DNA of 11,539 nt from Candidatus Nealsonbacteria bacterium RIFCSPHIGHO2_02_FULL_43_13 (GTDB taxonomy: Bacteria > Patescibacteriota > Minisyncoccia > Minisyncoccales > MHMH01): contig MHMD01000006.1 in NCBI GenBank assembly GCA_001819295.1, forward strand, positions 1 through 11,539, read 5' to 3'. The first letter of the stretch is position 1. Every line of letters starts with the position of its first letter. The notes under the pieces were generated by a model, which saw only the letters and a list, made by a program, of their open reading frames with translations, was not told where the DNA came from and ran no database searches. Positions 1-11,539 of this stretch are shown here, one piece after another. Both the position numbers and the translations under genes were made by a program.

Positions 1-52
1 GTGGGTAGTTGTGGTCTTAAGACAGGTTCTAACGTCGTCTACTACTCCCCGC

Positions 53-90
53 AAAATTCAAGGAGGCCATTTTGGCCTCTTTTGAATTTT
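53..90. terminator. Long bidirectional terminator-like hairpin (copy 1)
   Basis: A long stem: AAAATTCAA (53-61) pairs with TTGAATTTT (82-90), and GAGGCCA (63-69) pairs with TGGCCTC (73-79), closing a TTT loop. The A-rich 5' arm and T-rich 3' arm would allow it to work on either strand. It separates the 54-nt core from the branched palindrome. Confidence 0.65.
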
Positions 91-96
91 ATGATG

Positions 97-186
97 GACG
101 AGACTCGAACGCCACCGAGCGAAGCCCAAAGGGCGAAGCGAGAGTGGCGAGTGCCCAGCCCGAAGAGGCGTGGGGCGAGTCTCGTC
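97..186. other. Branched palindromic element (possible structured RNA or DNA), copy 1
   Basis: An 11-bp perfect inverted repeat (GACGAGACTCG 97-107 with CGAGTCTCGTC 176-186) encloses two further stems. Arm 1 is CGCCAC (110-115) with GTGGCG (144-149), holding an inner GCCC-AAA-GGGC hairpin (124-134). Arm 2 is about 153-160 with 167-174 around CGAAGA. The result is a two-armed junction closed by a long stem. It ends in CTCGTCGTCCCCGCCA, and the minus strand carries a TTCGAGT T-loop-like string, so it recalls tRNA 3' ends. No full cloverleaf can be drawn. It lies just upstream of the promoter at 201. Function unknown. Confidence 0.6.
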
Positions 187-200
187 GTCCCCGCCAACTA

Positions 201-229
201 TTGACAATACCACAAAGATGTGGTATTAT
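201..229 (+). promoter_or_regulatory. Sigma70-type promoter with inverted repeat in the spacer (copy 1)
   Basis: TTGACA (201-206) and TATTAT (224-229) are separated by exactly 17 bp. A 9-bp perfect inverted repeat, AATACCACA (206-214) and TGTGGTATT (219-227) around AAGA, fills the spacer and touches both boxes, where a dimeric repressor could bind. Transcription should start near 236, giving a leader of about 29 nt with a good SD before the ATG at 265. The regulator is unknown. Confidence 0.75.
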
Positions 230-264
230 TATAGTATAGAGAATTGGATAAGGAGAGGGTTAAA

Positions 265-522
265 ATGAGTAAATTAAAGAATTGTCCTGATTGTGGTGTA
301 GCACCTGGTCAACCTCACAAAACTGGCTGTGATGTAGAACGCTGTAGTGTTTGTGGTCATCAACGCATAAGTTGTGACTGCAAAAAACGACAAGACAAGG
401 CATTCGCCAGATGGACCGGGTTCTGGCCAGGCGAACTCGAAGCAAGGGAGCTCGGCATAGACTTGAATGAGTTCCATAGACAAGGGTTTCATCAAGTATT
501 CTTTGTAAAACCCAAGGTGTAG
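265..522 (+). CDS. Small cysteine-rich (zinc-knuckle-like) protein, copy 1
   Basis: An 85-aa protein of unknown function. The ATG at 265 is chosen because the SD AGGAGAGGG (251-259) sits at the right distance; a TTG at 244 lies before that SD and is unlikely. The first half has seven Cys (7, 10, 22, 27, 30, 37, 39) and His 18 and 32, arranged as CxxC, a second CxxC and CxC, which suggests two small zinc-binding knuckles. The second half has a conserved-looking WTGFWPGELEARELG segment (residues 50-64) and an acidic, aromatic tail. No signal peptide or membrane segment is seen. I have the impression that similar short hypothetical proteins occur across several phyla, but this is from memory. 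It has its own promoter-operator and terminator, so it is a single-gene cassette. It could be a nucleic-acid-binding or regulatory protein; this is inference. Confidence 0.82.
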   Translation: MSKLKNCPDCGVAPGQPHKTGCDVERCSVCGHQRISCDCKKRQDKAFARWTGFWPGELEARELGIDLNEFHRQGFHQVFFVKPKV

Positions 523-553
523 CTACTTAGAAGGGGCTAATTATTTAGCCTCA

Positions 554-594
554 AACTCCCGAACACAATGCGTGTCTCGGGAGTTCTTGTTTTT
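554..594 (+). terminator. Intrinsic terminator after the cysteine-rich gene (copy 1)
   Basis: A 9-bp stem, AACTCCCGA (554-562) with TCGGGAGTT (577-585), has an inner ACAC/GTGT stem and is followed by a T-rich run to 594. A smaller hairpin GGCTAA/TTAGCC (535-550) precedes it. The 595-741 stretch after it has no convincing gene: it is pyrimidine-rich at first and ends in the sequence leading to the 54-nt core. Confidence 0.85.
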
Positions 595-793
595 ACACAA
601 ACCTCATTTCTCTTATTTCTTCTCTTATCTCTCCCAACTAAAAGTCTAAACGTGTCCAATGGAGGTAAGATATAGTGAATAGCGGGATAGGGTAATTTAG
701 TTGATTTTTGCCGCTTCCAGCGATAACCTCGGAATGAAGAAGTGGGTAGTTGTGGTCTTAAGACAGGTTCTAACGTCGTCTACTACTCCCCGC

Positions 794-831
794 AAAATTC
801 AAGGAGGCCATTTTGGCCTCTTTTGAATTTT
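794..831. terminator. Long bidirectional terminator-like hairpin (copy 2)
   Basis: Same hairpin as at 53-90, in the second repeat unit. Confidence 0.65.
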
Positions 832-837
832 ATGATG

Positions 838-927
838 GACGAGACTCGAACGCCACCGAGCGAAGCCCAAAGGGCGAAGCGAGAGTGGCGAGTGCCCAGC
901 CCGAAGAGGCGTGGGGCGAGTCTCGTC
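838..927. other. Branched palindromic element, copy 2
   Basis: Identical to 97-186, in the second repeat unit. Confidence 0.6.
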
Positions 928-941
928 GTCCCCGCCAACTA

Positions 942-970
942 TTGACAATACCACAAAGATGTGGTATTAT
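942..970 (+). promoter_or_regulatory. Sigma70-type promoter with inverted repeat in the spacer (copy 2)
   Basis: Identical to 201-229: TTGACA 942-947, TATTAT 965-970, and the same 9-bp inverted repeat at 947-968. It drives the second copy of the 85-aa gene. Confidence 0.75.
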
Positions 971-1005
971 TATAGTATAGAGAATTGGATAAGGAGAGGG
1001 TTAAA

Positions 1006-1263
1006 ATGAGTAAATTAAAGAATTGTCCTGATTGTGGTGTAGCACCTGGTCAACCTCACAAAACTGGCTGTGATGTAGAACGCTGTAGTGTTTGTGGTCA
1101 TCAACGCATAAGTTGTGACTGCAAAAAACGACAAGACAAGGCATTCGCCAGATGGACCGGGTTCTGGCCAGGCGAACTCGAAGCAAGGGAGCTCGGCATA
1201 GACTTGAATGAGTTCCATAGACAAGGGTTTCATCAAGTATTCTTTGTAAAACCCAAGGTGTAG
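1006..1263 (+). CDS. Small cysteine-rich (zinc-knuckle-like) protein, copy 2
   Basis: Identical 85-aa product to the gene at 265-522, in the second tandem unit, with the same SD (AGGAGAGGG at 992-1000), promoter and terminator. Two unaltered copies mean either recent duplication, gene-dosage amplification or an assembly artefact. The protein's Cys pairs and WPG-containing second half are as described for copy 1. Confidence 0.82.
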   Translation: MSKLKNCPDCGVAPGQPHKTGCDVERCSVCGHQRISCDCKKRQDKAFARWTGFWPGELEARELGIDLNEFHRQGFHQVFFVKPKV

Positions 1264-1294
1264 CTACTTAGAAGGGGCTAATTATTTAGCCTCA

Positions 1295-1335
1295 AACTCC
1301 CGAACACAATGCGTGTCTCGGGAGTTCTTGTTTTT
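1295..1335 (+). terminator. Intrinsic terminator after the cysteine-rich gene (copy 2)
   Basis: Identical to 554-594, in the second repeat unit. Confidence 0.85.
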
Positions 1336-1482
1336 ACACAAACCTCATTTCTCTTATTTCTTCTCTTATCTCTCCCAACTAAAAGTCTAAACGTGTCCAA
1401 TGGAGGTAAGATATAGTGAATAGCGGGATAGGGTAATTTAGTTGATTTTTGCCGCTTCCAGCGATAACCTCGGAATGAAGAA

Positions 1483-1536
1483 GTGGGTAGTTGTGGTCTT
1501 AAGACAGGTTCTAACGTCGTCTACTACTCCCCGCAA
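1483..1536. repeat. Partial third copy of the repeat (54-nt core)
   Basis: The first 54 nt of the unit recur here and identity ends after position 1536, where unique sequence begins. The layout is therefore core-insert-core-insert-core. The 54 nt can fold: GTAGT (1487-1491) and AGAC (1502-1505) pair with the adjacent GTCT and ACTAC (1519-1527). It also contains the 10-bp palindrome GTCTTAAGAC. In this last copy the core runs straight into an intrinsic terminator (1543-1568), so it could be the 3' end of a small RNA or an attachment-like site. Confidence 0.8.
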
Positions 1537-1542
1537 CGGTTT

Positions 1543-1568
1543 TCAAGCCATCAGGGCTTGATTTTTTT
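1543..1568 (+). terminator. Intrinsic terminator after the partial third repeat
   Basis: TCAAGCC (1543-1549) pairs with GGCTTGA (1555-1561) across a 5-nt loop, followed by seven T (1562-1568). It lies 7 nt after the 54-nt core, so any RNA ending in the core would stop here. In the full copies a different hairpin (53-90) occupies the same position. Confidence 0.85.
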
Positions 1569-1584
1569 ATTGCAGGTAGTATAA

Positions 1585-1602
1585 AGAAAATAGCTATTTT
1601 CT
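1585..1602. promoter_or_regulatory. 18-bp perfect palindrome, candidate operator
   Basis: AGAAAATAG (1585-1593) is followed directly by its reverse complement CTATTTTCT (1594-1602). It lies between the terminator at 1543-1568 and the 52-aa gene at 1638. A weak TTGCAG (1570-1575) could be a -35 box, with TATTTT (1595-1600) as a poorly spaced -10. It is the right size for a dimeric repressor site; no regulator is identified. Confidence 0.45.
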
Positions 1603-1637
1603 AATTACCAATAAAGAAACACTTAAGGAGGTATGTA

Positions 1638-1796
1638 ATGCAAAAAGTATTGACTCCCAGTAAAGTCAGAGAAATGCTTGAAAAAGCAAGTAGGGACCTT
1701 CGTGAAGAGGAAAGAAGAAGGAAAAAGATGGGCATAAGAAGACCAGAAGAGCCAGGCCTTACCCCCGAAGCAAGACATTTCCAGTTTAAATTTTAG
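1638..1796 (+). CDS. Small basic protein of unknown function (52 aa)
   Basis: The ATG at 1638 follows a strong SD, AAGGAGG (1625-1631), with a 6-nt gap, and the frame runs 52 codons to TAG. The N-terminal half begins LTPSKVREMLEKAS and continues into a highly charged helix rich in Arg, Glu and Lys (residues 9-35). The C-terminal part is PEEPGLTPEARHFQFKF. No Cys, signal peptide or membrane segment is present. The family is not recognised. It probably shares a transcript with the 49-aa gene 30 nt downstream, ending at the terminator at 2004. The SD and lack of internal stops support a real gene, but short length keeps confidence moderate. Confidence 0.6.
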   Translation: MQKVLTPSKVREMLEKASRDLREEERRRKKMGIRRPEEPGLTPEARHFQFKF

Positions 1797-1826
1797 TTGT
1801 AAAGAACAGAAATTCAGGGGAAAACA

Positions 1827-1976
1827 GTGACTCATCCTGTTTGGAATGGTCCGTTTCCGCTTTCCGGCAGCGGCGAGGTTCGATCCGAAACAGTTCCTTT
1901 TTGTCCGAAATGCGAAGAAGAGCCAGGTTCCCACGGGGTGCCGATAAGTCCCAAGGGTAGCTACCATAATCCTTAG
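1827..1976 (+). CDS. Very small CxxC protein of unknown function (49 aa)
   Basis: A GTG start at 1827 preceded by AGGGGAAAA (1816-1824), which gives a usable SD. The 49 codons read through to TAG and contain VPFCPKCEEEPGSHGVPIS (residues 23-41). Cys26 and Cys29 form a single CxxC, with His36 nearby: half of a zinc site, so it might need to dimerise or bind a partner. It follows the 52-aa gene by 30 nt and precedes a terminator. It is a third small Cys-containing gene in the same neighbourhood as the tandem 85-aa genes, suggesting a cluster of related accessory small proteins. This is suggestive only. Confidence 0.5.
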   Translation: MTHPVWNGPFPLSGSGEVRSETVPFCPKCEEEPGSHGVPISPKGSYHNP

Positions 1977-2003
1977 TCCAATTATCTTAAGGGGACGTAA
2001 ATT

Positions 2004-2033
2004 AGCGGGGCGATGATTTCACCCCGCTTTTTC
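2004..2033 (+). terminator. Intrinsic terminator after the small-gene pair
   Basis: AGCGGGG (2004-2010) pairs with CCCCGCT (2022-2028), followed by a T run to 2032. Confidence 0.88.
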
Positions 2034-2082
2034 ATTTTTCCAAACTCAAAATTGGCACTCTCAAAACCCTCCTTTGTATAAA

Positions 2083-2132
2083 GCTTCGGATGGGCGAAGC
2101 AGGTTCTGATTCGACTACGCTCACTAACGACG
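2083..2132. repeat. Hairpin plus TTCGACTACGCTCACT-type dispersed-repeat fragment
   Basis: GCTTCG (2083-2088) pairs with CGAAGC (2095-2100), followed by TTCGACTACGCTCACTAACG (2110-2129). Strings of this kind (TTCGACTACGCTCA) recur as intergenic repeats in many environmental bacterial genomes; this is from memory. No gene is seen between the terminator at 2033 and the promoter at 2135. Confidence 0.35.
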
Positions 2133-2134
2133 GC

Positions 2135-2164
2135 TTGACACTGTAATTTAATACACGATATAAT
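2135..2164 (+). promoter_or_regulatory. Consensus promoter for a leaderless transcript
   Basis: TTGACA (2135-2140) and TATAAT (2159-2164), both perfect consensus, have an 18-bp spacer. A start about 7 nt after the -10 box falls at 2171, only two bases before the ATG at 2173. There is no room for an SD, so the mRNA should be leaderless. Confidence 0.85.
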
Positions 2165-2172
2165 ATAAATAT

Positions 2173-2490
2173 ATGGACAAAGATTTCAGCGAAATAATTG
2201 AATATTTAGACGGAAAATTTTCTGGGGTGGACGAAAAATTCTCCGGCATAGACGAAAAATTCTCCGGCATAGACGGAAGGCTTATTGATTTAGATAATAA
2301 AATAGAAGAACTTAAAGAGAATAAGGCAGATAAATCAGATATTAGCACACTAATGAGCGCTATCGATGCTTATGCCAAGAAAGCCGATACGTATTTTCAA
2401 GAAATGGTAATGTTGAGCCATAAAGTTAATAGATTAGAAAAATGGATTCAAGAAATAGCCGAGAAGGTGGGGATTAGATTGGAATATTAA
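2173..2490 (+). CDS. Heptad-repeat coiled-coil protein (105 aa)
   Basis: Function unknown. Residues 10-50 are a run of heptads, with near-identical units GKFSGVD, EKFSGID, EKFSGID, GRLIDLD and NKIEELK, giving regular hydrophobic positions for a coiled coil. A second helical part (residues 57-98) ends in an amphipathic segment with LEKWIQEIAEKVGIRLEY at the C-terminus. No Cys, signal peptide or membrane segment. Short coiled-coil proteins of this look are frequent in CPR genomes, and the heptads resemble phage tail-fibre or SlyX-like stalks, but no specific role follows. The start is fixed by the promoter: the ATG lies at the predicted transcription start. It is the only gene left of 6150 without an SD. 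Confidence 0.85.
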   Translation: MDKDFSEIIEYLDGKFSGVDEKFSGIDEKFSGIDGRLIDLDNKIEELKENKADKSDISTLMSAIDAYAKKADTYFQEMVMLSHKVNRLEKWIQEIAEKVGIRLEY

Positions 2491-2519
2491 ATAAAATTGA
2501 TTTTTGCGTTTTTAATTTT

Positions 2520-2545
2520 CAGGCCCGCAAGAGCTTGTTTTTCTT
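2520..2545 (+). terminator. Weak intrinsic terminator after the coiled-coil gene
   Basis: CAGGC (2520-2524) pairs with GCTTG (2533-2537, one G-T pair) across an 8-nt loop, followed by TTTTTCTTTTT. The stem is short, so termination may be partial. Confidence 0.4.
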
Positions 2546-2600
2546 TTTGGGATGTGATAGAAAGATCGGAGGAAAAAGGAGGTGAAATAGGGTAAGTTTT

Positions 2601-2656
2601 TTGACAACAAAATAGGGGCTAAAAAATAAAAAAACGATAAGGAGGAAAGGAAAAAC
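2601..2656 (+). promoter_or_regulatory. Possible promoter and leader of pyrF
   Basis: TTGACA (2601-2606) is a perfect -35 box, but the expected -10 position (2624-2629, AAATAA) is poor. A good SD, AAGGAGG (2639-2645), lies 11 nt before pyrF. A second SD-like AAGGAGGTGAAAT at 2577-2589 leads to no open frame. No PyrR-type attenuator or riboswitch is seen. Confidence 0.4.
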
Positions 2657-3397
2657 ATGGAAGTAAGTGAAAGGTTGATTGTAGCGGCGGATTACGATCC
2701 CAGGAAATTAGGCGGCATAATCGGTGTTAAGAACGAAGTATTGAAGCTCGCGGAATCGTTAAAGGGTCTCGGCGTCATCATCAAGGTTAACTCCGTGCTT
2801 CGCGCCCGTGGCTATGAGCTCATTGAAGGTCTGCACGGTCTCGGTCTGCGGGTTTTTGCCGACCTGAAGCTCATCGATATCCCAAACACTATGGAAACGG
2901 ACGGCGCCATGCTCGCCGAGGTCAAGCCGGAGCTTGTGACCGTAATGTGCTGTGCCGGCATCGATGGAATGCGCGCCGTGCAGAAAGCAATCGGCGGAAC
3001 CACTGAAGTGCTCGGCGTCTCGGTTCTTACTTCCCTTGACGAGGAAGAATGCCAGGCTATCTTTACCTGTTCTACCAAAGCCGGAGTACTCCGTTTCGCG
3101 CGCATGGCTCAGCTTGCCGACTTGGGAGGCCTCATTCTCTCGTCGCAAGAGGCGGAAATGCTCGGGGCAAAGCAAGAATTGGTACTTACTCTCAATACGC
3201 CGGGCATCAGACCAGATTGGTCTCTGGTGGCGGGTGACGATCAAAAGAGAGTGATGACTCCAGGGAAGGCAATCAAGGCTGGCGTTAAACGCATTGTCGT
3301 TGGCCGCCCGATTACTCAAGCGAAGGATCCCAGAGGGGCGGTGGAAAAAACTCTTCAAGAGATTGAAGAGGCACTGAAGGAAAGTAGCACGGTTTAA
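2657..3397 (+). CDS. pyrF: Orotidine 5'-phosphate decarboxylase
   Basis: Catalyses OMP to UMP, the last step of de novo UMP synthesis, in the cytoplasm. At 246 aa it has normal length for the family. The family signature is present: substrate-binding Asp12, Lys43 in IIKVN, and the catalytic set DLKLIDIPNT with Asp69, Lys71 and Asp74. The usual His of LKFHDIP is Ile73 here. TPGIRP (181-186) and VVGRPI (214-219) form the phosphate-binding side of the TIM barrel. It starts at an ATG with SD AAGGAGG. pyrE follows after 34 nt and pyrD-pyrC lie further down, consistent with a pyrimidine operon. The coding sequence looks GC-richer than the core genes at the right end, a hint of different ancestry. 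Confidence 0.96.
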   Translation: MEVSERLIVAADYDPRKLGGIIGVKNEVLKLAESLKGLGVIIKVNSVLRARGYELIEGLHGLGLRVFADLKLIDIPNTMETDGAMLAEVKPELVTVMCCAGIDGMRAVQKAIGGTTEVLGVSVLTSLDEEECQAIFTCSTKAGVLRFARMAQLADLGGLILSSQEAEMLGAKQELVLTLNTPGIRPDWSLVAGDDQKRVMTPGKAIKAGVKRIVVGRPITQAKDPRGAVEKTLQEIEEALKESSTV

Positions 3398-3431
3398 GCC
3401 GCGCCACTAAAAAATCCAAGGAGGTGAAAAG

Positions 3432-4019
3432 GTGAACCAAGAAGAAAGGATTGAGTTATTCAGGCAAACAACCGCTTTTCTCTCCGGCCACTTCCTCTTG
3501 CACTCCGGTCTTCATGCCGATAAATATGTGGCAAAGAGGCGTCTATATTCAAGTCCTCGCAAGGTAAAGGAATTGTGCCTCGAGATTACTAAGCATTTCC
3601 GGGATCTGGAAGTGCAAGCTGTTGCTTCTCCAGCAGTCGGGGGAGTGGCTCTGTCGCAATGGGTTGGAATTCATTTCGCCGATTTGCTTGGTCGCGAGGT
3701 TCCGGCTGTATTTGTGGAAAAAGACGAGGATAATCCGAGAGAATTCAAATTCTCGGAAGGGTGCGGCGACTTTATCGTCGGCAAAAAAACCCTGCTCGTC
3801 GATGACGTTTTGACAACGGGTGGGTCAATTGAAGCCGCGCGAAGGGCTATCATCAAAGCAGGTGGCACCGTGATTGCAGTGGCTGTCCTGTGGCAGAGAT
3901 GCGAAAAGATAGAGCTGGACGTGCCCTTCTATGCGCTGATACACAAGGTCTTTCCGTCGTGGGCTCCTCCAGAATGCCCTCTCTGTGCAAAAAATATCCC
4001 TTTGATTAAGCCACACTAA
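3432..4019 (+). CDS. pyrE: Orotate phosphoribosyltransferase
   Basis: Joins orotate and PRPP to give OMP, the substrate of the PyrF encoded just upstream. It has 195 aa. It starts at GTG, fixed by the SD AAGGAGGTG directly before it. GHFLLHSGLHADKYV (19-33) is the substrate loop seen in the family, and LLVDDVLTTGGS (121-132) is the PRPP-binding motif with acidic Asp124-Asp125. The C-terminus, CPLCAKNIPLIKPH, carries a CxxC and resembles the Thermus-type OPRT subfamily (TIGR01367, from memory) rather than the E. coli type. The gap after pyrF is 34 nt. An intrinsic terminator immediately follows, so pyrFE and pyrDC can be separate transcripts. Confidence 0.96.
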   Translation: MNQEERIELFRQTTAFLSGHFLLHSGLHADKYVAKRRLYSSPRKVKELCLEITKHFRDLEVQAVASPAVGGVALSQWVGIHFADLLGREVPAVFVEKDEDNPREFKFSEGCGDFIVGKKTLLVDDVLTTGGSIEAARRAIIKAGGTVIAVAVLWQRCEKIELDVPFYALIHKVFPSWAPPECPLCAKNIPLIKPH

Positions 4020-4032
4020 GGAATAGGCAAAT

Positions 4033-4077
4033 CCGCTGGAGGCTGAGTTTTAAGCCTCAGCACCAGCGGCTTTTTTA
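4033..4077 (+). terminator. Strong intrinsic terminator after pyrE
   Basis: CCGCTGG (4033-4039) pairs with CCAGCGG (4063-4069), and inner GCTGAG (4042-4047) pairs with CTCAGC (4056-4061). Six T follow at 4071-4076. It sits in the middle of the pyr cluster. Confidence 0.9.
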
Positions 4078-4081
4078 TTCT

Positions 4082-4109
4082 TTGACTAACTTTTTAGATG
4101 TGGTAACTT
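4082..4109 (+). promoter_or_regulatory. Probable promoter of pyrD-pyrC
   Basis: TTGACT (4082-4087) and TAACTT (4104-4109) have a 16-bp spacer, with an extended TG at 4101-4102. It starts 5 nt after the terminator, so pyrDC can be transcribed on its own. The -10 box is weak. Confidence 0.45.
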
Positions 4110-4128
4110 CAAAAGGAGGAGGTGTACC

Positions 4129-5049
4129 TTGATAAAATTAAGTAACGGTCACCAGCTTGAATTTGTAGCAGCTTCAGGAAGTTTAGCTTTCGATGGCCGA
4201 GGTTGGCCTTGGGAATGGCCACTTCGCTGGACGGGACTGTTGGATCCGCGCCTATTTACCGTCACCGCGAAGACCCTACTTCCGACAGAATGGAAGGGCA
4301 ATCTTCGCTGGGCTCATCCTTTTGACGTGTTGAAGTTTGTTTCCAGAGAAGGCAATCCTATTAATCCCGCCATCGCCATTGCAAGGCGCGGTTCAATCGG
4401 TGGTGTAGTTAACGCCATCGGGCTGACCGGCCCCGGGATTGATAAGTGGCTGAAAAGGGATTACCCCGTTATCGAGAGTAAGGGTTACAAGGTTATCGTT
4501 TCCATTACTGGCCCTGGGGGCGGCCAAGGGTGCTTTGAAATGGTGAAACGTCTCGAAGGCATCAATATCGTAGGTATTGAATTTAATGCTTCCTGCCCGA
4601 ATACTGACCCGACGCTTTTGCAAAATCCGGACATAGTTGTTGCGCAATGTCGTGCGATAAAAGAAGCAACGGATCGCCCGCTTTTATTGAAATTAAGCTA
4701 CAGCCAGCCTTATTGCGAAATTGCCAAAAGGGTCGAGGGCCTTGTCGAGGCGATCAGTATCAACACTGTTCCCTGGAAATTAGTTTTCGGAGACAAAGCG
4801 TCTCCTTTGGCAAGATACGGCGGCGGTGGCGTTTCTGGTCCTGTTGCCCAGCCCTTTATCTGGAGAATGATCTCAGAGTTGGCAAGAACTACATCTATTC
4901 CGATTATTGGAGCTGGCGTTTGGGAATACGAAGACATTGCTCGTCTTAAAACACTCAGAGCTTCAGCTATTCATTTCGGAACAATCTTTTTCCACCCTTG
5001 GAAGCCGACTAGTTATGTTAAAAAATGGATGGAGGTAAGGTATGAGTGA
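4129..5049 (+). CDS. pyrD: Dihydroorotate dehydrogenase (class 1-like)
   Basis: Oxidises dihydroorotate to orotate with FMN. Its 306 aa match soluble class 1 enzymes; there is no N-terminal membrane helix of the class 2 type. The TTG start is set by a very strong SD (AAAAGGAGGAGG, 4111-4122). Visible motifs: NAIGLTGPG (95-103), IEFNASCPNT (150-159) with catalytic Cys156 as in class 1, FMN-contacting Lys188 in LLLKLS, INT (211-213), the phosphate loop GGGGVSGP (231-238), and IIGAGV in place of the usual IxGvGGI. No pyrK partner is present, so a class 1A-type (fumarate) or other acceptor is likely; the sequence does not decide. The 3' end overlaps pyrC by 8 nt. Confidence 0.94.
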   Translation: MIKLSNGHQLEFVAASGSLAFDGRGWPWEWPLRWTGLLDPRLFTVTAKTLLPTEWKGNLRWAHPFDVLKFVSREGNPINPAIAIARRGSIGGVVNAIGLTGPGIDKWLKRDYPVIESKGYKVIVSITGPGGGQGCFEMVKRLEGINIVGIEFNASCPNTDPTLLQNPDIVVAQCRAIKEATDRPLLLKLSYSQPYCEIAKRVEGLVEAISINTVPWKLVFGDKASPLARYGGGGVSGPVAQPFIWRMISELARTTSIPIIGAGVWEYEDIARLKTLRASAIHFGTIFFHPWKPTSYVKKWMEVRYE

Positions 5050-6079
5050 CAGAATAACACTGCGAAGATTTGACGACATGCATTGCCATTTCAGGATGGG
5101 ACACCTCTTGAATGAGGTGTTACCTGTCACGGCGTTGTATGCTGGGCGCGCGATCGCAATGCCGAACACGCGGCCACGCGCAATTCTCACCGGAAAAGAT
5201 GTGTCATGGTATCGCGACCAAATTTATCGAGCGGGCAATTGGTTTGCGAAACAGCTTTCTTTTGAGCCGCTCATGACCATAGAGATAAGAGATAGTACGA
5301 CACCTGAAATGATTGCCGAGGCGAAACGCGCGGGAGCAGTTGCCGGGAAAGTGTATCCGTTAGGGGTAACCACAAATTCCGACGAAGGGCTCCGTGATTT
5401 CTTCAGGCCGGAAATTTCAGACACTTTCCGGGCAATGGAGGAAGCCGGCATGCTCCTTCTTCTCCATGGCGAATTGGATCAGGAGAGGACGCTTGTCACA
5501 AAACGGGAGGAAGTTTTTCTTCCAACGCTTGTAATGCTGGCTAAAAAGTTCCCGAATCTAAAGATTGTTCTCGAGCACGTTTCTACGAGAGCGGGGATTG
5601 AGATGGTAAAGCAGCTTGGGAAGAATGTCGCGGCGACAATCACTGCTCATCATCTATGCTTGACGCTGAACGACGTTATCGGTTACGGCATACAACCGCA
5701 TAATGCGTGCAATCCGATGCCGAAAGACTTCGACGATCGCGATGCGCTCATTAAAGCAGCGACCAGCGGCAATCCGAAGTTTTTCTTGGGATCGGACACC
5801 GCACCACATACGCGGGATAAGAAAGAATGTGCTAAGGGAGCCTGCGGAGTATTTACAGCGCCCGTGCTTCCAGAGCTTCTTGTTGAGATTTTTGAACAGG
5901 CCGGGCATCTCGGCCAGCTTGAAGACTTTACTTCGCGTTTTGGGGCGGAGTTCTACGGCCTCCCTCTCAATGAAGGCGAGGTCGTTCTTGTTAAAAGAGA
6001 ATGGGTCGTGCCGAAACAAATTGGAAGCGTTGTACCATTCCGGGCCGGCACCAAGCTTCAGTGGAAATTATCGCAGTAA
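5042..6079 (+). CDS. pyrC: Dihydroorotase (E. coli-type, class II)
   Basis: Cyclises carbamoyl-aspartate to dihydroorotate, the substrate of PyrD. Its 345 aa are close to the E. coli PyrC length. All expected metal and catalytic residues are visible: His14 and His16 in DDMHCHFR, carboxylated Lys103 in GKVYPLGVTTNSDEG, His142 in LLLHGE, His179 in LEHVSTRAG, and Asp252 in FLGSDTAPH. ATITAHHLCLTLND and PHNACNPMPKD are also typical. The ATG overlaps the end of pyrD (ATGAGTGA, 5042-5049), with GGAGG at 5030-5034, indicating translational coupling. A terminator follows directly. pyrB and carAB, which would supply its substrate, are not in the window. Confidence 0.96.
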   Translation: MSDRITLRRFDDMHCHFRMGHLLNEVLPVTALYAGRAIAMPNTRPRAILTGKDVSWYRDQIYRAGNWFAKQLSFEPLMTIEIRDSTTPEMIAEAKRAGAVAGKVYPLGVTTNSDEGLRDFFRPEISDTFRAMEEAGMLLLLHGELDQERTLVTKREEVFLPTLVMLAKKFPNLKIVLEHVSTRAGIEMVKQLGKNVAATITAHHLCLTLNDVIGYGIQPHNACNPMPKDFDDRDALIKAATSGNPKFFLGSDTAPHTRDKKECAKGACGVFTAPVLPELLVEIFEQAGHLGQLEDFTSRFGAEFYGLPLNEGEVVLVKREWVVPKQIGSVVPFRAGTKLQWKLSQ

Positions 6080-6092
6080 GTCAACCTAATAT

Positions 6093-6127
6093 AAAGGTCT
6101 CGCGGGGTAATCCTACGAGACCTTTTT
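6093..6127 (+). terminator. Intrinsic terminator after pyrC
   Basis: AAAGGTCTCG (6093-6102) pairs with CGAGACCTTT (6116-6125), followed by a T run to 6127. It closes the pyr block. Confidence 0.9.
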
Positions 6128-6155
6128 CCTTGGAAGTTATCCCCAGTTTTTGGAG

Positions 6156-6184
6156 TTGATTTTAGTCTATTTTTAGGGTAAAAT
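6156..6184 (+). promoter_or_regulatory. Promoter of the pheS gene, probably leaderless
   Basis: TTGATT (6156-6161) and TAAAAT (6179-6184) have exactly 17 bp between them. The expected start, about 7 nt after the -10 box, coincides with the ATG at 6191. If the first base is that A, the transcript has no 5' leader. An ATG at 6197 would leave a leader of only 6 nt. Confidence 0.75.
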
Positions 6185-6190
6185 AGAGGA

Positions 6191-7342
6191 ATGAGTATGC
6201 GCAAAAACATTATCATAAAAGACGAAAAGGAGGATGCTTTAATCGAAGAATTAAACAAAAGAAACGATATTAAGGCGGAAAGAATCAGGAGGCTGTTAGA
6301 ACTTACCGACCTGACGAAAAAAGAAAACTCTCCCATAAAAATTCTAGCCGATCAGATAATAAAATTGCCGAGGTTTAAAGATTTTGACCTGATTGATTTC
6401 CCGAGAATAGTTTCGGTCGGACAAAACTTCGATCTTTTAAATACTCCCAAAGACCATTCGAGCAGAAGGGAAACGGACACTTATTACGTTTCAGCTGAGT
6501 ATGTTCTAAGAACCCAGACGACAGACATGTGGTCTTTCCATCTTAAAGACCCTGAAATTTTGGAAAAATTGAAGAAAGAAGGGAGAGTCGGCGCGCTCTC
6601 AACCGGGATAGTTTTCAGGAAAGACGAAATTGATCGAAAGCATTTTCCGGCTTTTCACCAAATAGACGGCTTATATGTTTGTAAAAAATCAGACAAAGTT
6701 CTTGCCCAGAAGGACTTAGAAGATGTTTTGGTCGATATTGCAAAAAGCATTTTTGGGCAAGAGATAGAATATAAATTCGCGGTGGATTCTTTTCCGTTCA
6801 CCGACCCGTCGGTTGAAATGAGTCTGAATTTTAACGGCCAATGGATGGAAATTTTAGGTTCCGGGATTGTGCATCAGCAGGTTTTTAAAAATCTTGGTTT
6901 AGATCCCGAAATTTATAACGGTTGGGCGTTCGGTATGGGCATAGAAAGATTGGCGATGGTAAAAATGGGCATCCCCGACATCAGAATACTTTGGTCAGGA
7001 GATTCAAGAATTACGAGCCAGTTTAAAGACATAGACAGTCGATATGAAGAAGTAAGCAAGTATCCGGAAATTTCCAGAGATATTTCTTTTGTGATTGCAA
7101 AAACAATTAACTTGAATAATTATTACGAAATTGTCAGGGATTTTGCCCAAAACCTAATTGAAGAGGTGAAACTCATTGACAGCTACGAAGATGAAAAGAA
7201 ATTCGGCAAAGATAACAAGAGCTATACCTTTAGGATTGTCTATCGTTCTCCGGAAAGAACCCTAACGAACGATGAAGTAAATAAAATCCAGGAAGCAATA
7301 AGAAATAAAACAAAACAAGATTTAAACGCCATGTTACGTTAA
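6191..7342 (+). CDS. pheS: Single-chain phenylalanyl-tRNA synthetase (mitochondrial-type architecture)
   Basis: Charges tRNA-Phe with phenylalanine. Its 383 aa join a class II catalytic core (about 60-275) to a C-terminal ferredoxin-fold anticodon-binding domain (about 290-383). Core signatures are QNFDLLNTPKDHSSR (78-92), motif 2 GIVFRKDEIDRKHFPAFHQ (139-157), FPFTDPS (201-207) and motif 3 GWAFGMGIERLAM (244-256). The tail has YPEISRDISF (291-300), FRIVYRSPERTL and a terminal helix, as in FDX-ACB domains. In ordinary bacteria this tail ends the beta subunit PheT and the enzyme is alpha2beta2; here it is fused to the core, as in mitochondrial PheRS. No pheT follows; gyrB starts 9 nt later. 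It starts at ATG 6191 (or 6197) without SD. Confidence 0.93.
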   Translation: MSMRKNIIIKDEKEDALIEELNKRNDIKAERIRRLLELTDLTKKENSPIKILADQIIKLPRFKDFDLIDFPRIVSVGQNFDLLNTPKDHSSRRETDTYYVSAEYVLRTQTTDMWSFHLKDPEILEKLKKEGRVGALSTGIVFRKDEIDRKHFPAFHQIDGLYVCKKSDKVLAQKDLEDVLVDIAKSIFGQEIEYKFAVDSFPFTDPSVEMSLNFNGQWMEILGSGIVHQQVFKNLGLDPEIYNGWAFGMGIERLAMVKMGIPDIRILWSGDSRITSQFKDIDSRYEEVSKYPEISRDISFVIAKTINLNNYYEIVRDFAQNLIEEVKLIDSYEDEKKFGKDNKSYTFRIVYRSPERTLTNDEVNKIQEAIRNKTKQDLNAMLR

Positions 7343-7351
7343 TTAAATAAT

Positions 7352-9286
7352 ATGCCACAAAAACCAACAGAAAAAATCGAGGCAGGCTATACAGCCAAAG
7401 ATATTTATGTTTTGCAGGGCCTTGATCCGGTCAGACGCCGCCCGGGTATGTATATTGGGTCAACCGGCCCCGAAGGTCTGCATCATTTGGTTTGGGAGTG
7501 CGTTGATAACAGTATTGATGAGGCTATGGCCGGTTATGCCAAAAACGTCCAGGTTGTTTTGTTGCCTCAAAATCGGGTAAAAACCGTTGATGACGGCCGA
7601 GGCATCCCCGTGGAAAAGCATCCTCAGACCAAGAAATCAGCTTTAGAAACCGTCATGACCACGCTTCACAAGGGAGCTAAGTTCGGCAGCCAGGCTTATA
7701 AGATATCCGGCGGGCTTCATGGCGTGGGCGTAGCGGTAGTGTGCGCCCTTTCTAAATGGTCCCGGGCCGAGGTTTGTCGGGGAGGAGTCAGGTATTTTCA
7801 GGAATATGTTAAAGGCAAGCCCATGGGCCCCGTCAAGAAAGACATTAAATGCAGCCAAACCGGCACGACCATAATTTTTGAACCTGATCCGGAAATTTTC
7901 CCGGAAATAAAATTTGATGCCAAAAAAGTTTTAACTCACTTGCGCCAGCAGGCCTACTTAACCAAAGGAATCAGGATCAGCATAATTGATGAACGCGAAA
8001 AACCAGCCAAGCCCTATACTTTTTATTTCGAAGGGGGATTGCAGTCTTATGTTAAATACCTCGTTCACGGCGCTGTGCCTATCCAGCAGAATGTTTTTTA
8101 TGCGGCCAACGAAAAAGACGGTATTGCCGTGGAAGCGGCTTTCCAATATACCCGCGACCGCGAATTTTATGAAGAAAGCTTTGCCAATAATATTCATACC
8201 GGAGAGGGCGGCACTCACACGACCGGTTTTCGGGGCGCTTTAACCAGATCGCTCAACGATTACGCCCGAAAAAACAGTTTTTTAAAAGAGAAAGACGAGA
8301 ATCTAACCGGTGAAGATTTAAGAGACGGATTTACCGGCGTAATTTCTGTTAAATTAAGGGAGCCTCAATTTGAAGGCCAGACAAAAGCGAAATTAGGCAA
8401 TCCTGAAGTTAAATCAGCTGTTGAGGCCGTGGTTTTAGAGGGCCTGACGGATTTTTTAGAAAGAAATCCGCAAGATGCCAGGGGGATTATTGAAATGTGC
8501 TTATTGTCAGCTAAAGCGAGAAAAGCCGCCAAGGCGGCTCGACAGACGGTTTTAAGAAAAGGCGCTTTGGACGGCTTAGCTTTACCCGGAAAACTGGCTG
8601 ACTGCTCTTCGCGCAACCCCGAAGAATCAGAACTTTTCATCGTGGAGGGCGACTCCGCCGGCGGCAGCTGTAAAATGGGCCGCAACAGAGCGTTCCAGGC
8701 TATTCTGCCTTTGCGCGGCAAGATTTTAAACATTGAAAGAGCAAGGCTCGATAAGATGCTGGCTTCTAAAGAGATTAGAGCCTTGATTATCGCTTTGGGC
8801 ACGGCCATTGGTGAAGACTTTAATCTGGAAAATTTGAGGTATCACCGCATTATTTTGACTTTGGATGCTGATGTGGACGGATCGCATATCAGAACGCTGC
8901 TGCTGACTCTTTTTTATCGCCACTTCCAGCCGATTATCGCCGGGGGACATTTATATATTGCCCAGCCGCCTTTATACAAGATTCAATTGGGAAAAAAAAT
9001 GGAATATGCCTATAATGATGAGGATAAGGCCGAGATTACGGGCGCTATGAAAAAAGAAGCGAAAGGCAATCCGATTATTCAGCGCTATAAGGGCCTCGGA
9101 GAAATGAACCCGGAACAGTTGTGGGAAACGACCATGAATCCGGAAAACAGGATTTTATTAAGAGTGGATATTGAAGATGCTCGGGAAGCTGACCGGGTTT
9201 TCGACGTTCTGATGGGCGATGATGTTTTGCCCAGGAAAAAATTCATTCAGGCCCACGCCAAAAAAGTGAAGAATTTAGATATTTAA
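7352..9286 (+). CDS. gyrB: DNA gyrase subunit B
   Basis: ATPase and TOPRIM subunit of gyrase, which introduces negative supercoils with GyrA. Its 644 aa are normal for the short (non-E. coli) GyrB. The GHKL ATPase shows ECVDNSIDEA (Glu49, Asn53), DDGRGIP (80-86) and GGLHGVG (120-126). The transducer has a QTKAKLGN motif. The TOPRIM domain has EGDSAGG (432-438) and LDADVDGSHI (504-513), followed by the C-terminal QRYKGLGEMNPEQLW (577-591). ParE is possible in principle, but VMTTLHKGAKFG and the overall layout favour GyrB. It follows pheS by 9 nt and precedes the next gene by 2 nt, so it is probably co-transcribed. No SD precedes its ATG (TTAATTAAATAAT). gyrA is not in the window. Confidence 0.95.
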   Translation: MPQKPTEKIEAGYTAKDIYVLQGLDPVRRRPGMYIGSTGPEGLHHLVWECVDNSIDEAMAGYAKNVQVVLLPQNRVKTVDDGRGIPVEKHPQTKKSALETVMTTLHKGAKFGSQAYKISGGLHGVGVAVVCALSKWSRAEVCRGGVRYFQEYVKGKPMGPVKKDIKCSQTGTTIIFEPDPEIFPEIKFDAKKVLTHLRQQAYLTKGIRISIIDEREKPAKPYTFYFEGGLQSYVKYLVHGAVPIQQNVFYAANEKDGIAVEAAFQYTRDREFYEESFANNIHTGEGGTHTTGFRGALTRSLNDYARKNSFLKEKDENLTGEDLRDGFTGVISVKLREPQFEGQTKAKLGNPEVKSAVEAVVLEGLTDFLERNPQDARGIIEMCLLSAKARKAAKAARQTVLRKGALDGLALPGKLADCSSRNPEESELFIVEGDSAGGSCKMGRNRAFQAILPLRGKILNIERARLDKMLASKEIRALIIALGTAIGEDFNLENLRYHRIILTLDADVDGSHIRTLLLTLFYRHFQPIIAGGHLYIAQPPLYKIQLGKKMEYAYNDEDKAEITGAMKKEAKGNPIIQRYKGLGEMNPEQLWETTMNPENRILLRVDIEDAREADRVFDVLMGDDVLPRKKFIQAHAKKVKNLDI

Positions 9287-9288
9287 AT

Positions 9289-9735
9289 ATGGCAGAACAA
9301 GAAACCGATAAAAAAGGAATAATCAAGGCTTTGATTTTCGCGCTTTTGCTAGCTTTTTTAGGCATCGGGATTTTGGGTTGGCAGTATCGTAAAATAGAAA
9401 CCGAAAAAATTCCGGTTTTAGAAGAAAAAATTGAGCAAAAAACTGCGGAGTCCGCTTTGGATAAATTTATGCGTGCGCGCATTGGGAAAAACGAACAAGC
9501 CGCCTTAAATTACTTAACCGAATTCGCAATGGAGCAGAAAAATAGCGACAGATTTTCATTATTGGGCGATTTTCAAACTTACGAAATTTTAAACCAAGAC
9601 AAATTGCCCGACGGTCGCTATCGTTTTGCCGTGAAAATTTATGATAGCGACGAAATGAATGATCGGGTGGAAATTATCATCTCGGTCAAAATTTTAGACC
9701 GATATTACATTGATTCGATTGAGTTGGGCGGTTGA
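9289..9735 (+). CDS. Membrane-anchored protein of unknown function (148 aa)
   Basis: Residues 1-10 are polar, and 11-31 (IIKALIFALLLAFLGIGILGW) form one transmembrane helix or uncleaved signal anchor. A charged helical linker (about 34-55) leads to a soluble domain outside the membrane (about 56-148). That domain begins ALDKFMRARIGKNEQAALNY and ends in beta-like stretches, recalling NTF2-like or DUF4878-type folds; this is a guess from pattern, not a family match. No Cys or catalytic motif is seen. It starts 2 nt after gyrB without SD, so it is likely the last gene of the pheS-gyrB transcript. No terminator hairpin is obvious before the next promoter. Confidence 0.8.
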   Translation: MAEQETDKKGIIKALIFALLLAFLGIGILGWQYRKIETEKIPVLEEKIEQKTAESALDKFMRARIGKNEQAALNYLTEFAMEQKNSDRFSLLGDFQTYEILNQDKLPDGRYRFAVKIYDSDEMNDRVEIIISVKILDRYYIDSIELGG

Positions 9736-9745
9736 GATCGGGCGG

Positions 9746-9774
9746 TTGACTTAAGGTTAAGGCTTTGCTATTAT
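9746..9774 (+). promoter_or_regulatory. Promoter of the secE-nusG-rplK operon
   Basis: TTGACT (9746-9751) and TATTAT (9769-9774) are 17 bp apart. Transcription should begin near 9781, about 29 nt before the secE ATG. Confidence 0.78.
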
Positions 9775-9781
9775 AGGGATG

Positions 9782-9798
9782 AAGCGCCCAAGGCGCTT
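9782..9798 (+). promoter_or_regulatory. Hairpin at the predicted 5' end of the secE mRNA
   Basis: AAGCGCC (9782-9788) pairs with GGCGCTT (9792-9798) over a 3-nt loop, starting one base after the predicted transcription start. It could protect the 5' end of the mRNA or, with the four T after it (9797-9800), act as a weak attenuator. No SD lies between it and the ATG at 9810. Confidence 0.45.
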
Positions 9799-9809
9799 TT
9801 AAAAAACTC

Positions 9810-9995
9810 ATGTTTAGCAAAATTATTACATTTTTGAAAGAAGTCAAATTGGAGATAAAAAAGGTTAACTGGCCGACGCGCCACCAGACGATCAAGTATA
9901 CCCTGATTGTTTTGGGGATATCTTTGGTTATCGCCCTGTTTTTAGGGGGACTGGATTTTCTCTTTACCAAATTATTAGAAAAGTTTATACTCTAA
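9810..9995 (+). CDS. secE: Preprotein translocase subunit SecE
   Basis: Small essential subunit of the SecYEG channel. At 61 aa it is the short single-helix form usual outside Enterobacteria. FLKEVKLEIKKVNWPTRHQT (8-27) is the conserved amphipathic surface helix with the invariant W-P-T. One transmembrane helix follows (about 30-51). Its place just before nusG is the classical order. No SD precedes the ATG; the upstream bases are AAAAAACTC. nusG begins 1 nt after the stop codon. Confidence 0.95.
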   Translation: MFSKIITFLKEVKLEIKKVNWPTRHQTIKYTLIVLGISLVIALFLGGLDFLFTKLLEKFIL

Positions 9996-9996
9996 T

Positions 9997-10542
9997 ATGC
10001 CAAAACAACAAATCGAGCAACAGAGGAATTGGTACGTCATTCATACCTATTCGGGGTATGAGGATGCGGTGGCCAAGAACTTGAAGCAGAGAATCGAATC
10101 TTTAGGTATGGAAGATAAAATTTTCAACGTGATTGTGCCCAAAGAAAAGAAAATCAAGATTAAAGACGGTAAAAGAAAGGTGCAAGAAGAGAAGATCTAC
10201 CCGGGATATGTTTTGGTGGAAATGATTGTGACCGATGACTCCTGGTACGTGGTCAGAAACACCCCTAATGTTACGGGATTTGTCGGAGCGGGTACGACCC
10301 CGGTGCCGGTTTCTCTTTCAGAAATCGATATTTTAAAGAAAAAGATGGGCGTGGAAACGCCACAGTATAAGATTGACGTCAAGACCGGGGATGCCGTCAA
10401 AATTGTCGACGGGCCTTTCAAGGATTTCGACGGCAAGGTTTCCGAAATCGACGAAACCCGAGGCAAAATTAAAGTTTTGGTCAATATGTTCGGCCGAGAT
10501 ACGCCCGTAGAGCTCGATTCATTACAGATTAAAAAGATATGA
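9997..10542 (+). CDS. nusG: Transcription elongation and antitermination factor NusG
   Basis: Binds RNA polymerase and couples transcription with Rho or ribosomes. It has 181 aa, normal length. The NGN domain (about 10-120) shows [13 protein letters not shown] (11-23) and YPGYVLVEM (68-76). The C-terminal KOW domain (about 128-180) shows [10 protein letters not shown] and [10 protein letters not shown]. It lies 1 nt after secE and overlaps rplK by 4 nt (ATGA), as expected for a tightly coupled operon. No SD before the start. Confidence 0.97.
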
Positions 10543-10958
10543 AAAAAATTAAAGCGATCGTTAAATTACAGATTCAGGCGGGAGCGGCGACTCCGGCGCC
10601 GCCCGTGGGTCCGGCTTTGGCCCAGCACGGTTTGAATATTGTTGAGTTTTGCCAAAAATTCAATGCGGCGACAAAATCCCAGCAAGGATTTAAGCTGCCG
10701 GTGGAAATCACGGTTTTTGAGGACAGAACCTATGCCTTTAAGGTGAAACAGCCGCCCGCATCCGAACTTTTGAAAAAAGCGGCCGGCATTGAGAAGGGTT
10801 CGGGCGCTCCTAATAAAACCAAAGTGGCCAAAATCACTCGTGATCAATTGAGAAAAATCGCCGAACAGAAAATTGAAGATATGAATGCCTCTAATGTCGA
10901 AGCCGCCATGAGAACCATCGAAGGCACGGCGAAAAACATGGGCATCACTATCGAGTAG
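10539..10958 (+). CDS. rplK: 50S ribosomal protein L11
   Basis: Binds the GTPase-associated region of 23S rRNA. It has 139 aa, normal length. The N-terminal domain carries [20 protein letters not shown] (residues 10-29) and [11 protein letters not shown]. The C-terminal domain has [19 protein letters not shown] and ends in the helix-rich rRNA-binding part. It starts by a 4-nt overlap with nusG, so its translation is probably coupled. In most bacteria rplA (L1) follows; here a nucleotide deaminase follows after 19 nt. Confidence 0.97.
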
Positions 10959-10977
10959 TTTAATTTTTCTATAAAAA

Positions 10978-11472
10978 ATGGAAGAAAAAAAATACGTACG
11001 TCCAACCTGGGATGAATATTTTTTGGAACTAATAGAACCAATCGGCGAAAGAGCCACTTGCGACAGGGGACGCAGCGGAGCTGTCATTGTCAGTCCGCAT
11101 CATACTATTTTAGCTACCGGCTACGTCGGAGCTCCTCCGGGACAATCGCACTGTGATGAAGTCGGCCATATGATGAGGACGGTTATTGATGAAGCAGGCA
11201 ATCAATCTCAGCACTGTGTAAGAACCTTGCACGCCGAAGAAAACGCCATCTTGCAATGCGCCAAGGATGGCATAAAAATTGAAGGAGCGACGCTTTATTG
11301 TAAAATGGTTCCCTGTTACAACTGCGCCATGAGAATCGTCAGGGTGGGCATCAAAAAAGTGGTGGCGCAAAAAAGATACCACGCCGATGCATTATCCGTA
11401 AAATTATTCAATGATGCCGGCGTAAAATTGATAGTTATAGATGATACGACGGAAGAATACAAAAATCAATGA
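10978..11472 (+). CDS. Deoxycytidylate (dCMP) deaminase, ComEB-type
   Basis: Zinc enzyme that deaminates dCMP to dUMP, the substrate of thymidylate synthase. It has 164 aa, the usual size. The catalytic zinc site is visible: His85 and proton-shuttling Glu87 in LHAEENAI, and Cys113 and Cys116 in PCYNC. Upstream CDRGRSGAVIVSP and ATGYVGAPPG with a nearby HCDE match the dCMP deaminase fold, in which extra Cys/His residues often bind a second zinc. It begins 19 nt after rplK without SD and overlaps the next gene, a thymidylate kinase start, by 4 nt. The pair points to dTTP supply. Cytidine or tRNA adenosine deaminase are less likely given the neighbours and N-terminal motifs. Confidence 0.92.
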   Translation: MEEKKYVRPTWDEYFLELIEPIGERATCDRGRSGAVIVSPHHTILATGYVGAPPGQSHCDEVGHMMRTVIDEAGNQSQHCVRTLHAEENAILQCAKDGIKIEGATLYCKMVPCYNCAMRIVRVGIKKVVAQKRYHADALSVKLFNDAGVKLIVIDDTTEEYKNQ

Positions 11473-11539
11473 CCAATAATCCTTATCCGGGGAAATTCAT
11501 TGTTTTTGAAGGCCTGGACGGTTCGGGACAGTCAACCCA
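11469..11539 (+). CDS. tmk: Thymidylate kinase, 5' end only (cut by window edge)
   Basis: Only 23 complete codons are visible. The ATG at 11469 overlaps the deaminase stop codon (ATGA). The peptide contains KFIVFEGLDGSGQST (9-23), which aligns with the thymidylate kinase P-loop FEGxDGxGKST. The Walker A lysine is replaced by glutamine (Gln21). dTMP kinase fits the neighbouring dCMP deaminase. With so little sequence, another P-loop nucleoside or nucleotide kinase cannot be excluded. Confidence 0.75.
   Translation, partial: MTNNPYPGKFIVFEGLDGSGQST

Follow-up and report, generated by a model that had tools for sequence, protein, structure and literature searches.

Cis-mobilizable elements have att sites without a recombinase of their own and build up by site-specific accretion, as at transfer RNA (tRNA) genes, and the very small genomes of bacteria such as Candidatus Nealsonbacteria are usually seen as streamlined. 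For the ssrA islands of Dehalococcoides, the part of the published account considered here describes elements arranged in tandem at the 3' end of an RNA gene, with a short direct repeat of that end at their boundaries; some of these islands lack an integration module, and a large serine recombinase lies on the reverse strand beside attL (PMC3146451). The same part gives a single target, the transfer-messenger RNA (tmRNA) gene, a 20-bp repeat and a six-gene integration module for these islands, and mentions accretion (PMC3146451). The stretch of DNA analysed in this work, hereafter the window, comprises 11,539 nucleotides of Candidatus Nealsonbacteria bacterium RIFCSPHIGHO2_02_FULL_43_13 (assembly GCA_001819295.1, contig MHMD01000006.1, positions 1 to 11,539, forward strand) and starts at base 1 of this contig, here named C6 (11,966 bp). 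What stands at the beginning of the window is most probably one recombinase-less cassette, present twice in the assembled sequence, in a tRNA-anchored array.

A cassette present twice in the assembly and the site at its right end

Positions 1-741 of the window are identical, letter for letter, to 742-1482, with a further 54 nt of a third copy behind them (1-54 = 742-795 = 1483-1536), which bears out the original prediction of at least 2.07 mismatch-free copies of a 741-bp unit. A search of the same genome (524 kb) with this unit gave no further match at E <= 0.001. Three parts make up the right end of the cassette, namely a conserved stretch, a motif of 15 nt and a core that reproduces the tRNA-Asp 3' end; the site at the junction is the motif GGTTCTAACRTCGTC with this short copy of a tRNA 3' end after it. 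The limits of the cassette and of its site are as follows.

1..54, + strand: right end (RE) belonging to a cassette or copy that stood before, truncated at the contig edge; same sequence as 742-795 and 1483-1536
55..795, + strand: first cassette copy (741 bp), which starts past one core and includes the following one, the boundary being where the tRNA-matching core ends
796..1536, + strand: cassette copy 2, identical to copy 1
25..39, + strand: 15-nt motif GGTTCTAACGTCGTC, first copy
766..780, + strand: 15-nt motif, second copy
1507..1521, + strand: 15-nt motif, third copy
46..54, + strand: core TCCCCGCAA, first copy; equal to the genome's own tRNA-Asp 3' end plus the next bases AA
787..795, + strand: core TCCCCGCAA, second copy
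1528..1536, + strand: core TCCCCGCAA, third copy; the chromosomal flank begins at 1537
696..795, + strand: conserved RE of the cassette, sharing 79% identity over 696-761 with the RE of the L329 element (see below)
1437..1536, + strand: RE in copy 2; the copies are identical
contig C15 (locus L223), 9542-9616: the genome's own tRNA-Asp gene; next bases AATG

Tandem integration at a 54-nt site, or rolling of a circle of roughly 741 bp, had been proposed for these units. The rolling circle need not be invoked. For tandem integration the kind of event was right, as indicated by the recurring site, by the arrays of relatives and by a pair of filled and empty loci, all described below, and a recurring site does lie at the junction; the free-standing core of 54 nt did not hold. 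Its right edge, at 1536, is a genuine change of sequence, and its left edge is only the contig end, since the window starts at base 1 of C6. The conservation seen in a relative extends 46 nt to the left of the 54 nt (the L329 match covers window 696-761 and this core copy begins at 742), and the pieces that recur are smaller, namely the 15-nt motif and a tRNA-end copy of 7-9 nt.

The core follows the neighbouring tRNA

The window core TCCCCGC is the end of the genome's own tRNA-Asp, and on contig C7 of the same genome an array stands behind tRNA-Trp, its three sites ending in the tRNA-Trp end CCCCTGC; one further match to the spaced pattern, not called a tRNA, is found on contig C23. In the matching cases a distance of 27 nt separates GTTC from the end of the site, and the core there is the same as the last bases of the upstream tRNA on the same strand. 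The core was tested in 48 of 49 array loci, all outside the window contig (L247 is without a site). Among the 27 arrays with a tRNA at most 5 kb upstream, the core agreed with that tRNA at 6-7 of 7 positions in 13, against a mean of 3.3 and a maximum of 10 in 50,000 shuffles, and at all seven positions in 9 (shuffled mean 1.2, maximum 7). The matches at 6-7 positions comprise Asp, Asn, Gln, Trp, Val and His cases, the Gly case being L329, and in an earlier test of 80 sites the nearest tRNA was matched at 5.0 of 7 positions on average and other tRNAs at 3.6. The tRNA 3' end is repeated at the far boundary in the tRNA-Trp array of the same genome, in the window with respect to tRNA-Asp, in the pair L208/L209 and in L329. 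When the 20 nt after the tRNA were compared with those after the site, agreement at 16-20 positions was observed in 5 of the 27 arrays (L248, L249, L252, L311 and L313), so that the cassettes of these five arrays share their left end too. In another locus, L253, a 16-nt tRNA-Asn end occurs three times (2104, 2206 and 4587), which indicates that tRNA-end copies longer than the 7-9-nt core occur inside arrays.

A filled and an empty locus and the position of the window array

Two genomes of one genus, G082 (locus L208) and G083 (L209), share a syntenic stretch that is 80% identical over 2.9 kb (dnaG and rpoD by reading of the open reading frames, ORFs) and is followed by tRNA-Asn. In G082 the tRNA-Asn end CGGAGCCAA continues straight into the flank, that is, the site is empty; in G083 two site-bounded pieces lie between tRNA-Asn and the flank, and past the last site the two genomes are homologous again from CGGAGCCAA onwards.

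A search with the 741-bp unit found its core again in a member of the same family, G007, with 92% identity over 50 nt, at a site behind tRNA-Asp and before a different gene. On a single contig of G007 the order is tRNA-Met, tRNA-Met, tRNA-Asp, one cassette, the site and then a stretch homologous to window 6196-6810 (pheS-like). In the genome of the window (G000), the same trio of tRNAs ends contig C15 and the pheS-like gene lies in the window. Taken together, the order in G007, the trio on C15 and the pheS-like gene indicate that the array of the window is most likely the continuation of C15 beyond its tRNA-Asp end. In five other members of the family (G001, G002, G004, G005 and G008) the tRNA-Asp sequence differs, and no motif was found behind it in the stretch fetched (only 18 nt for G002).

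Arrays in related genomes

With at most one mismatch, the motif was found in 84 of the 247 genomes of the order, the genome of the window included, against 14 matches of a reversed control; of 383 genomes drawn from across the class, again with the own genome included, 65 hold exact copies, against one match of the reversed control. Outside the class, 4 of 347 sampled genomes had the motif and the reversed control gave 3 matches, which is chance level, and the motif is therefore mainly a feature of this class (control matches and the counts outside the class were taken manually from tables). One of the four genomes outside the class, G623, has a core that matches tRNA-His at 7 of 7 positions. 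The motif was also sought in viral contigs, where its 51 exact stretches are about the number estimated to be expected by chance for a 15-mer in such a collection.

The array loci were picked for holding the motif. Where at least two sites are present they lie on one strand in 40 of 40 loci, the median spacing of array sites is 1,011 bp (quartiles 0.55-1.86 kb) and 5 of 130 fall within ORFs of at least 80 amino acids (aa). The longest ORF between neighbouring sites is on the motif strand in 53 instances and on the opposite strand in 15. The sites often lie 3' of the stop codons of small genes (at most 150 bp away in 81 of 126), and terminator-like hairpins follow 29 of 129 sites compared with 31 of 644 random positions. 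The Pfam scan covered 130 of the 214 array ORFs, which match 91 families; 25 of the 91 were listed, and a rare recombinase among the cassettes is thus possible. The commonest family among the cassette ORFs is that of small GIY-YIG proteins (4 of 130, including L107:2784-3032 on the minus strand). Up to 16 motif copies were counted in a single array, that of L246, with at most two mismatches. Several sites of this array are paired 55-57 bp apart, one motif being followed for example by CCCTTCCC and the other by GGGGGAGC, and the full site may hold two motif copies, as in these pairs. A recombinase remnant is present in L246 at 15826-16101.

Serine recombinases at tRNA genes

The site is also found at the end of an element that encodes a recombinase. 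In G081 (L329), a member of another family, an 8,370-bp element stands at tRNA-Gly; GGTTCTAACC lies 59 nt past the tRNA end, and a large serine recombinase with the domains PF00239, PF07508 and PF13408 is encoded on the opposite strand, in a reading frame that runs into tRNA-Gly. Cargo follows, and then a right end with the motif (two positions off the consensus) and the core CCCGCTC, which is the tRNA-Gly end. The 66 nt to the left of the motif are 79% identical to the window cassette (blastn, E 1e-9), and the alignment of the two right ends scores 33, the shuffled maximum being 9. On contig C15 GGTTCTAACC occurs 60 nt after tRNA-Asp and is followed by an N gap and then by a 47-aa reading, 45 aa of which align with the C-terminal part of the L329 enzyme at 71% identity. 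L255 has a layout like that of L329, with an open stretch of 506 residues of which only the N-terminal domain reaches Pfam. A recombinase gene next to the tRNA is therefore present in L329 and L255, and in G000 as a C-terminal piece. In G027 (L325) a serine recombinase lies beside tRNA-Asn and, about 11 kb further on, a site with the tRNA-Asn core CCGGAGC is found. The PF00239 search gave 14 matches, of which all but one, below the cut-off, were fetched. Of 14 large serine recombinase genes examined, 9 end at most 160 nt from the 3' end of a tRNA on the opposite strand.

Proposed mechanism and alternative explanations

The two units are probably copies of a small, recombinase-less cassette lying behind tRNA-Asp and inserted there by a large serine recombinase that targets tRNA genes. 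The serine recombinase of full elements would join the site of a circular cassette to the tRNA end, in a reaction that would preserve the tRNA and mark the far side with a copied core. Cassettes with ends but no recombinase gene would ride along and pile up, and repeated events, or exchange between cores, could build arrays as well as the tandem pair. The motif would represent the half-site of the enzyme, with a GGTTC start that may mimic the T-arm of tRNA genes, and such mimicry would let one enzyme family use many tRNAs. Two identical adjacent cassettes would fit one cassette captured or copied twice, and an assembly loop would fit them too.

Several observations weigh against this explanation. 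The core agrees with the nearest tRNA at fewer than 6 of 7 positions in 14 of the 27 arrays (3 in L196 and L254, 2 in L307 and L317), for 21 of the 48 arrays the stretch fetched shows no tRNA in the 5 kb upstream, a clear shared left end is seen in only 5 of 27, and the last site of L209, GGTTCTAACAAAGTC, is two positions off the motif. C15 and C6 are unjoined in the assembly. Five of the 14 serine recombinase genes lie away from any tRNA. Only 10 of 22 motif-bearing genomes yielded a serine recombinase, and the own genome shows no more than a short C-terminal piece at a contig end, so that many arrays would be relics or would use an outside enzyme; G046 has six motif matches, yet neither a PF00239 nor a PF00589 match. 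The copies are also without any mismatch and the contig begins inside the repeat, as an assembly error would give.

This last point bears on the copy number, for which an artefact is a considerable possibility, though not the probable one: a single cassette between two right-end sites may have been walked twice as a loop at the contig end. Besides the 795 nt without mismatch and the contig start within the repeat, C6 has an N gap just beyond the window, which reveals a scaffolded assembly in which a false second copy is possible, and direct repeats of more than 200 bp at 85% identity or more were found in the window locus alone among the 35 loci tested, a set to which the 15 loci fetched afterwards do not belong. 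A recent duplication of the cassette would give identical copies too, and an artefact leaves the cassette, the site and the arrays of other genomes unexplained; the caveat of an assembly error, raised with the original prediction, thus stands for the number of copies and falls as an explanation of the cassette or its site. Unequal homologous recombination, possible at any direct repeat, could have duplicated a 741-bp chromosomal stretch with no part played by the site, which is quite unlikely given that the right edge of the repeat coincides with the end of the tRNA-matching core. As to the enzyme, a host Xer-type tyrosine recombinase is an unlikely mover of the cassettes. In its favour, 20 of 21 motif-bearing genomes carry a PF00589 protein, exactly one in 13 of them, and serine recombinases were found in fewer than half of such genomes; however, PF00589 proteins occur in 215 of the order's 247 genomes whether the motif is present or not, none of the 23 recognised tyrosine recombinase loci (27 fetched, as stretches of a few kb) holds the motif, and the element that shares the right end of the window encodes a serine recombinase.

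The site could instead be an RNA signal, a tRNA-like 3' end or a leader or terminator element used in RNA processing, with the mobility of the cassettes being illusory, and its position after stop codons and the excess of terminator-like hairpins behind it, as counted above, would suit such a role. It is nevertheless very unlikely: the core varies with the neighbouring tRNA, the L208/L209 insertion falls exactly at the core, an element bearing a recombinase ends with the site, and Rfam gave no family at the gathering level in the window, with one chance-level match in 640-1010. The idea of an RNA leader was dropped because the core follows the tRNA. True integrons, or integrase-less arrays (CALIN), with an IntI-type enzyme acting at attC sites, are highly improbable, even though mostly one or few genes per cassette, arrays on the same strand and a site after the stop codon are what such arrays would show, and small cassettes in one orientation are indeed what the strand counts given above reveal. 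The candidate fails two defining tests. The six tyrosine recombinases examined scored 68-117 bits on the IntI model TIGR02249 (cut-off 265) and are Xer-like, not IntI, by this score; the sole PF00589 protein of the own genome, at 83 bits, is one of them, the five others lying within the same range. GTTRRRY is not enriched downstream of the motif (up to 116 nt), being present at 9 of 129 sites and in 58 of 643 controls. TTCTAAC departs at its first base from the attC consensus RYYYAAC, and no attC-like fold is claimed, because by eye the 3' part of the right-end hairpin varies with the tRNA and its upstream part is constant. The cores follow the neighbouring tRNA and the window cassette carries its own promoter-like sequence, both of which speak against integrons as well.

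Other features of the cassette and of the window

The hairpin, branched palindrome, promoter with operator-like repeat, zinc-knuckle gene and terminator originally predicted for each unit have their counterparts in both, as a promoter-like sequence and a Cys-rich gene in the case of the promoter and the zinc-knuckle gene, and the region 1-260 has a folding z of -6.4.

55..91, also 796-832, + strand: terminator-like hairpin directly 3' of the core
97..186, also 838-927, + strand: branched palindrome, from its fold, with outer arms GACGAGACTCG / CGAGTCTCGTC
176..194, also 917-935, + strand: 19-nt exact copy of the genome's own tRNA-Asp 3' end, closing the branched palindrome
201..229, also 942-970, + strand: promoter-like TTGACA - 17 nt - TATTAT, with an inverted repeat at 208-225 in the spacer
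265..522, + strand: gene of a Cys-rich 85-aa protein, copy 1
1006..1263, + strand: gene of the Cys-rich 85-aa protein, copy 2
554..595, also 1295-1336, + strand: intrinsic-terminator-like hairpin of the Cys-rich gene
1537..1576, + strand: right flank, another, different terminator-like hairpin past the last core

In the 503,688 of 524,307 bases of the genome that were covered, the 19-nt tRNA-Asp end occurs only at window 176 and 917 and, as the tRNA itself, at L223 9598. The cassette has ends of the att type and no recombinase of its own, its sole gene being that of the 85-aa protein, as in a cis-mobilizable element. This protein has 360 homologues in a large protein set, with 20 invariant positions among 37 aligned, and the homologues lie mostly on short contigs among the 120 matches listed; no match was obtained in Pfam, NCBIfam or PHROGs, and no further copy in the own genome. 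It is predicted from its cysteines to bind zinc, and an AlphaFold model (mean pLDDT 68) was not used. A tie between this gene family and the site was considered and rejected: 98 homologue loci (L007-L104) gave 7 loose motif matches, none of them convincing, and the family as a whole is therefore not bound to the site. Window 1-1536 had no match in plasmid and phage records.

The promoter-operator of the window also precedes a different gene in G008 (L108:83-111) and is found in G213 (L203:7784), after a sequence resembling a tRNA-Asn end; a looser variant follows the tRNA-Asn end in L253:4615. With at most one mismatch the repeat occurs at 4 places in 1.3 Mb, the window copies accounting for two, and scrambled arms gave 0, 0 and 0; with at most two mismatches it occurs at 9 places against 5, 3 and 2, a weak signal. 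The inverted repeat TACCACA-N4-TGTGGTA is common to the promoter-like sequences of unrelated genes (window, L108, L203 and L253), and in the window, L203 and L253 the promoter-like sequence stands right behind a tRNA-3'-end-like sequence. A common repressor of cassettes behind the shared repeat is possible.

Further into the window, the PheS-like protein at 6191-7339 has its best NCBIfam score, below the cut-off, with NF051887 (PheS-related ligase SrmL). Window 2173-2490 encodes a coiled-coil-like protein whose C-terminal half is, by eye, near-identical to that of L215:6974-7216 (minus strand), the first gene behind the own tRNA-Trp; the window copy contains a 21-bp tandem repeat at 2207-2275, and this gene may be a further, worn cassette. 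Among the related loci, ARAGORN reported tRNA introns in L209:7972-8290 (Asn, 244 nt), L255:15395-15994 (Thr, 527 nt) and L298:395-1168 (Met, 699 nt); by eye, that of the L209 tRNA-Asn resembles a group I intron of the anticodon loop, and the sister genome L208 lacks it.

Implications and comparison with known systems

In a broader form, the data could reflect an integron-independent mode of gene capture in which serine recombinases read a T-arm-like half-site (GGTTC...) plus an exchangeable tRNA-end core, and in which many tRNAs anchor arrays of small cassettes, some with their own promoter, throughout the class; it is advanced tentatively, as falling just short of probable. If this were true, these bacteria would gather genes one at a time in the manner of integrons but with no integron, and an integron-like route to new genes would be available to very small genomes. 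The 15-nt motif together with the tRNA end would be enough to annotate such arrays automatically, and recombination sites for serine recombinases, with a core open to exchange, would be on offer. Among the matches listed in open-licence PubMed Central (titles and beginnings of abstracts), nothing was found that describes such a system in these bacteria, and the passages considered of PMC9580842 and PMC6851277 do not describe it.

Like the arrays described here, integrons and CALIN line up small, unrelated cassettes that all point the same way, each gene having a site behind it; they differ in that neither IntI nor an attC-type pair was found here, a tRNA gene serves as the anchor and the window cassette has its own promoter-like sequence. 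Cis-mobilizable elements likewise have att sites without a recombinase and pile up at one site, but the known cases are large, whereas the units seen here are small, with as many as 16 motif copies per array. Tycheposons are also tRNA-associated cargo elements of small genomes; being known as tyrosine-recombinase elements of marine picoplankton, they are set apart here by description, not by sequence. Among the systems compared here the nearest described case, judged from the part of the account considered, is that of the Dehalococcoides ssrA islands (PMC3146451), with which the arrays have in common the 3' end of an RNA gene as target, boundary repeats, members without a recombinase and a serine recombinase on the reverse strand. 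The ssrA gene was not among the anchors found, all of which are tRNA genes; unlike those islands as described in that part, the present arrays use several tRNA genes, consist of small cassettes, and share a 15-nt motif joined to a core that follows the tRNA.

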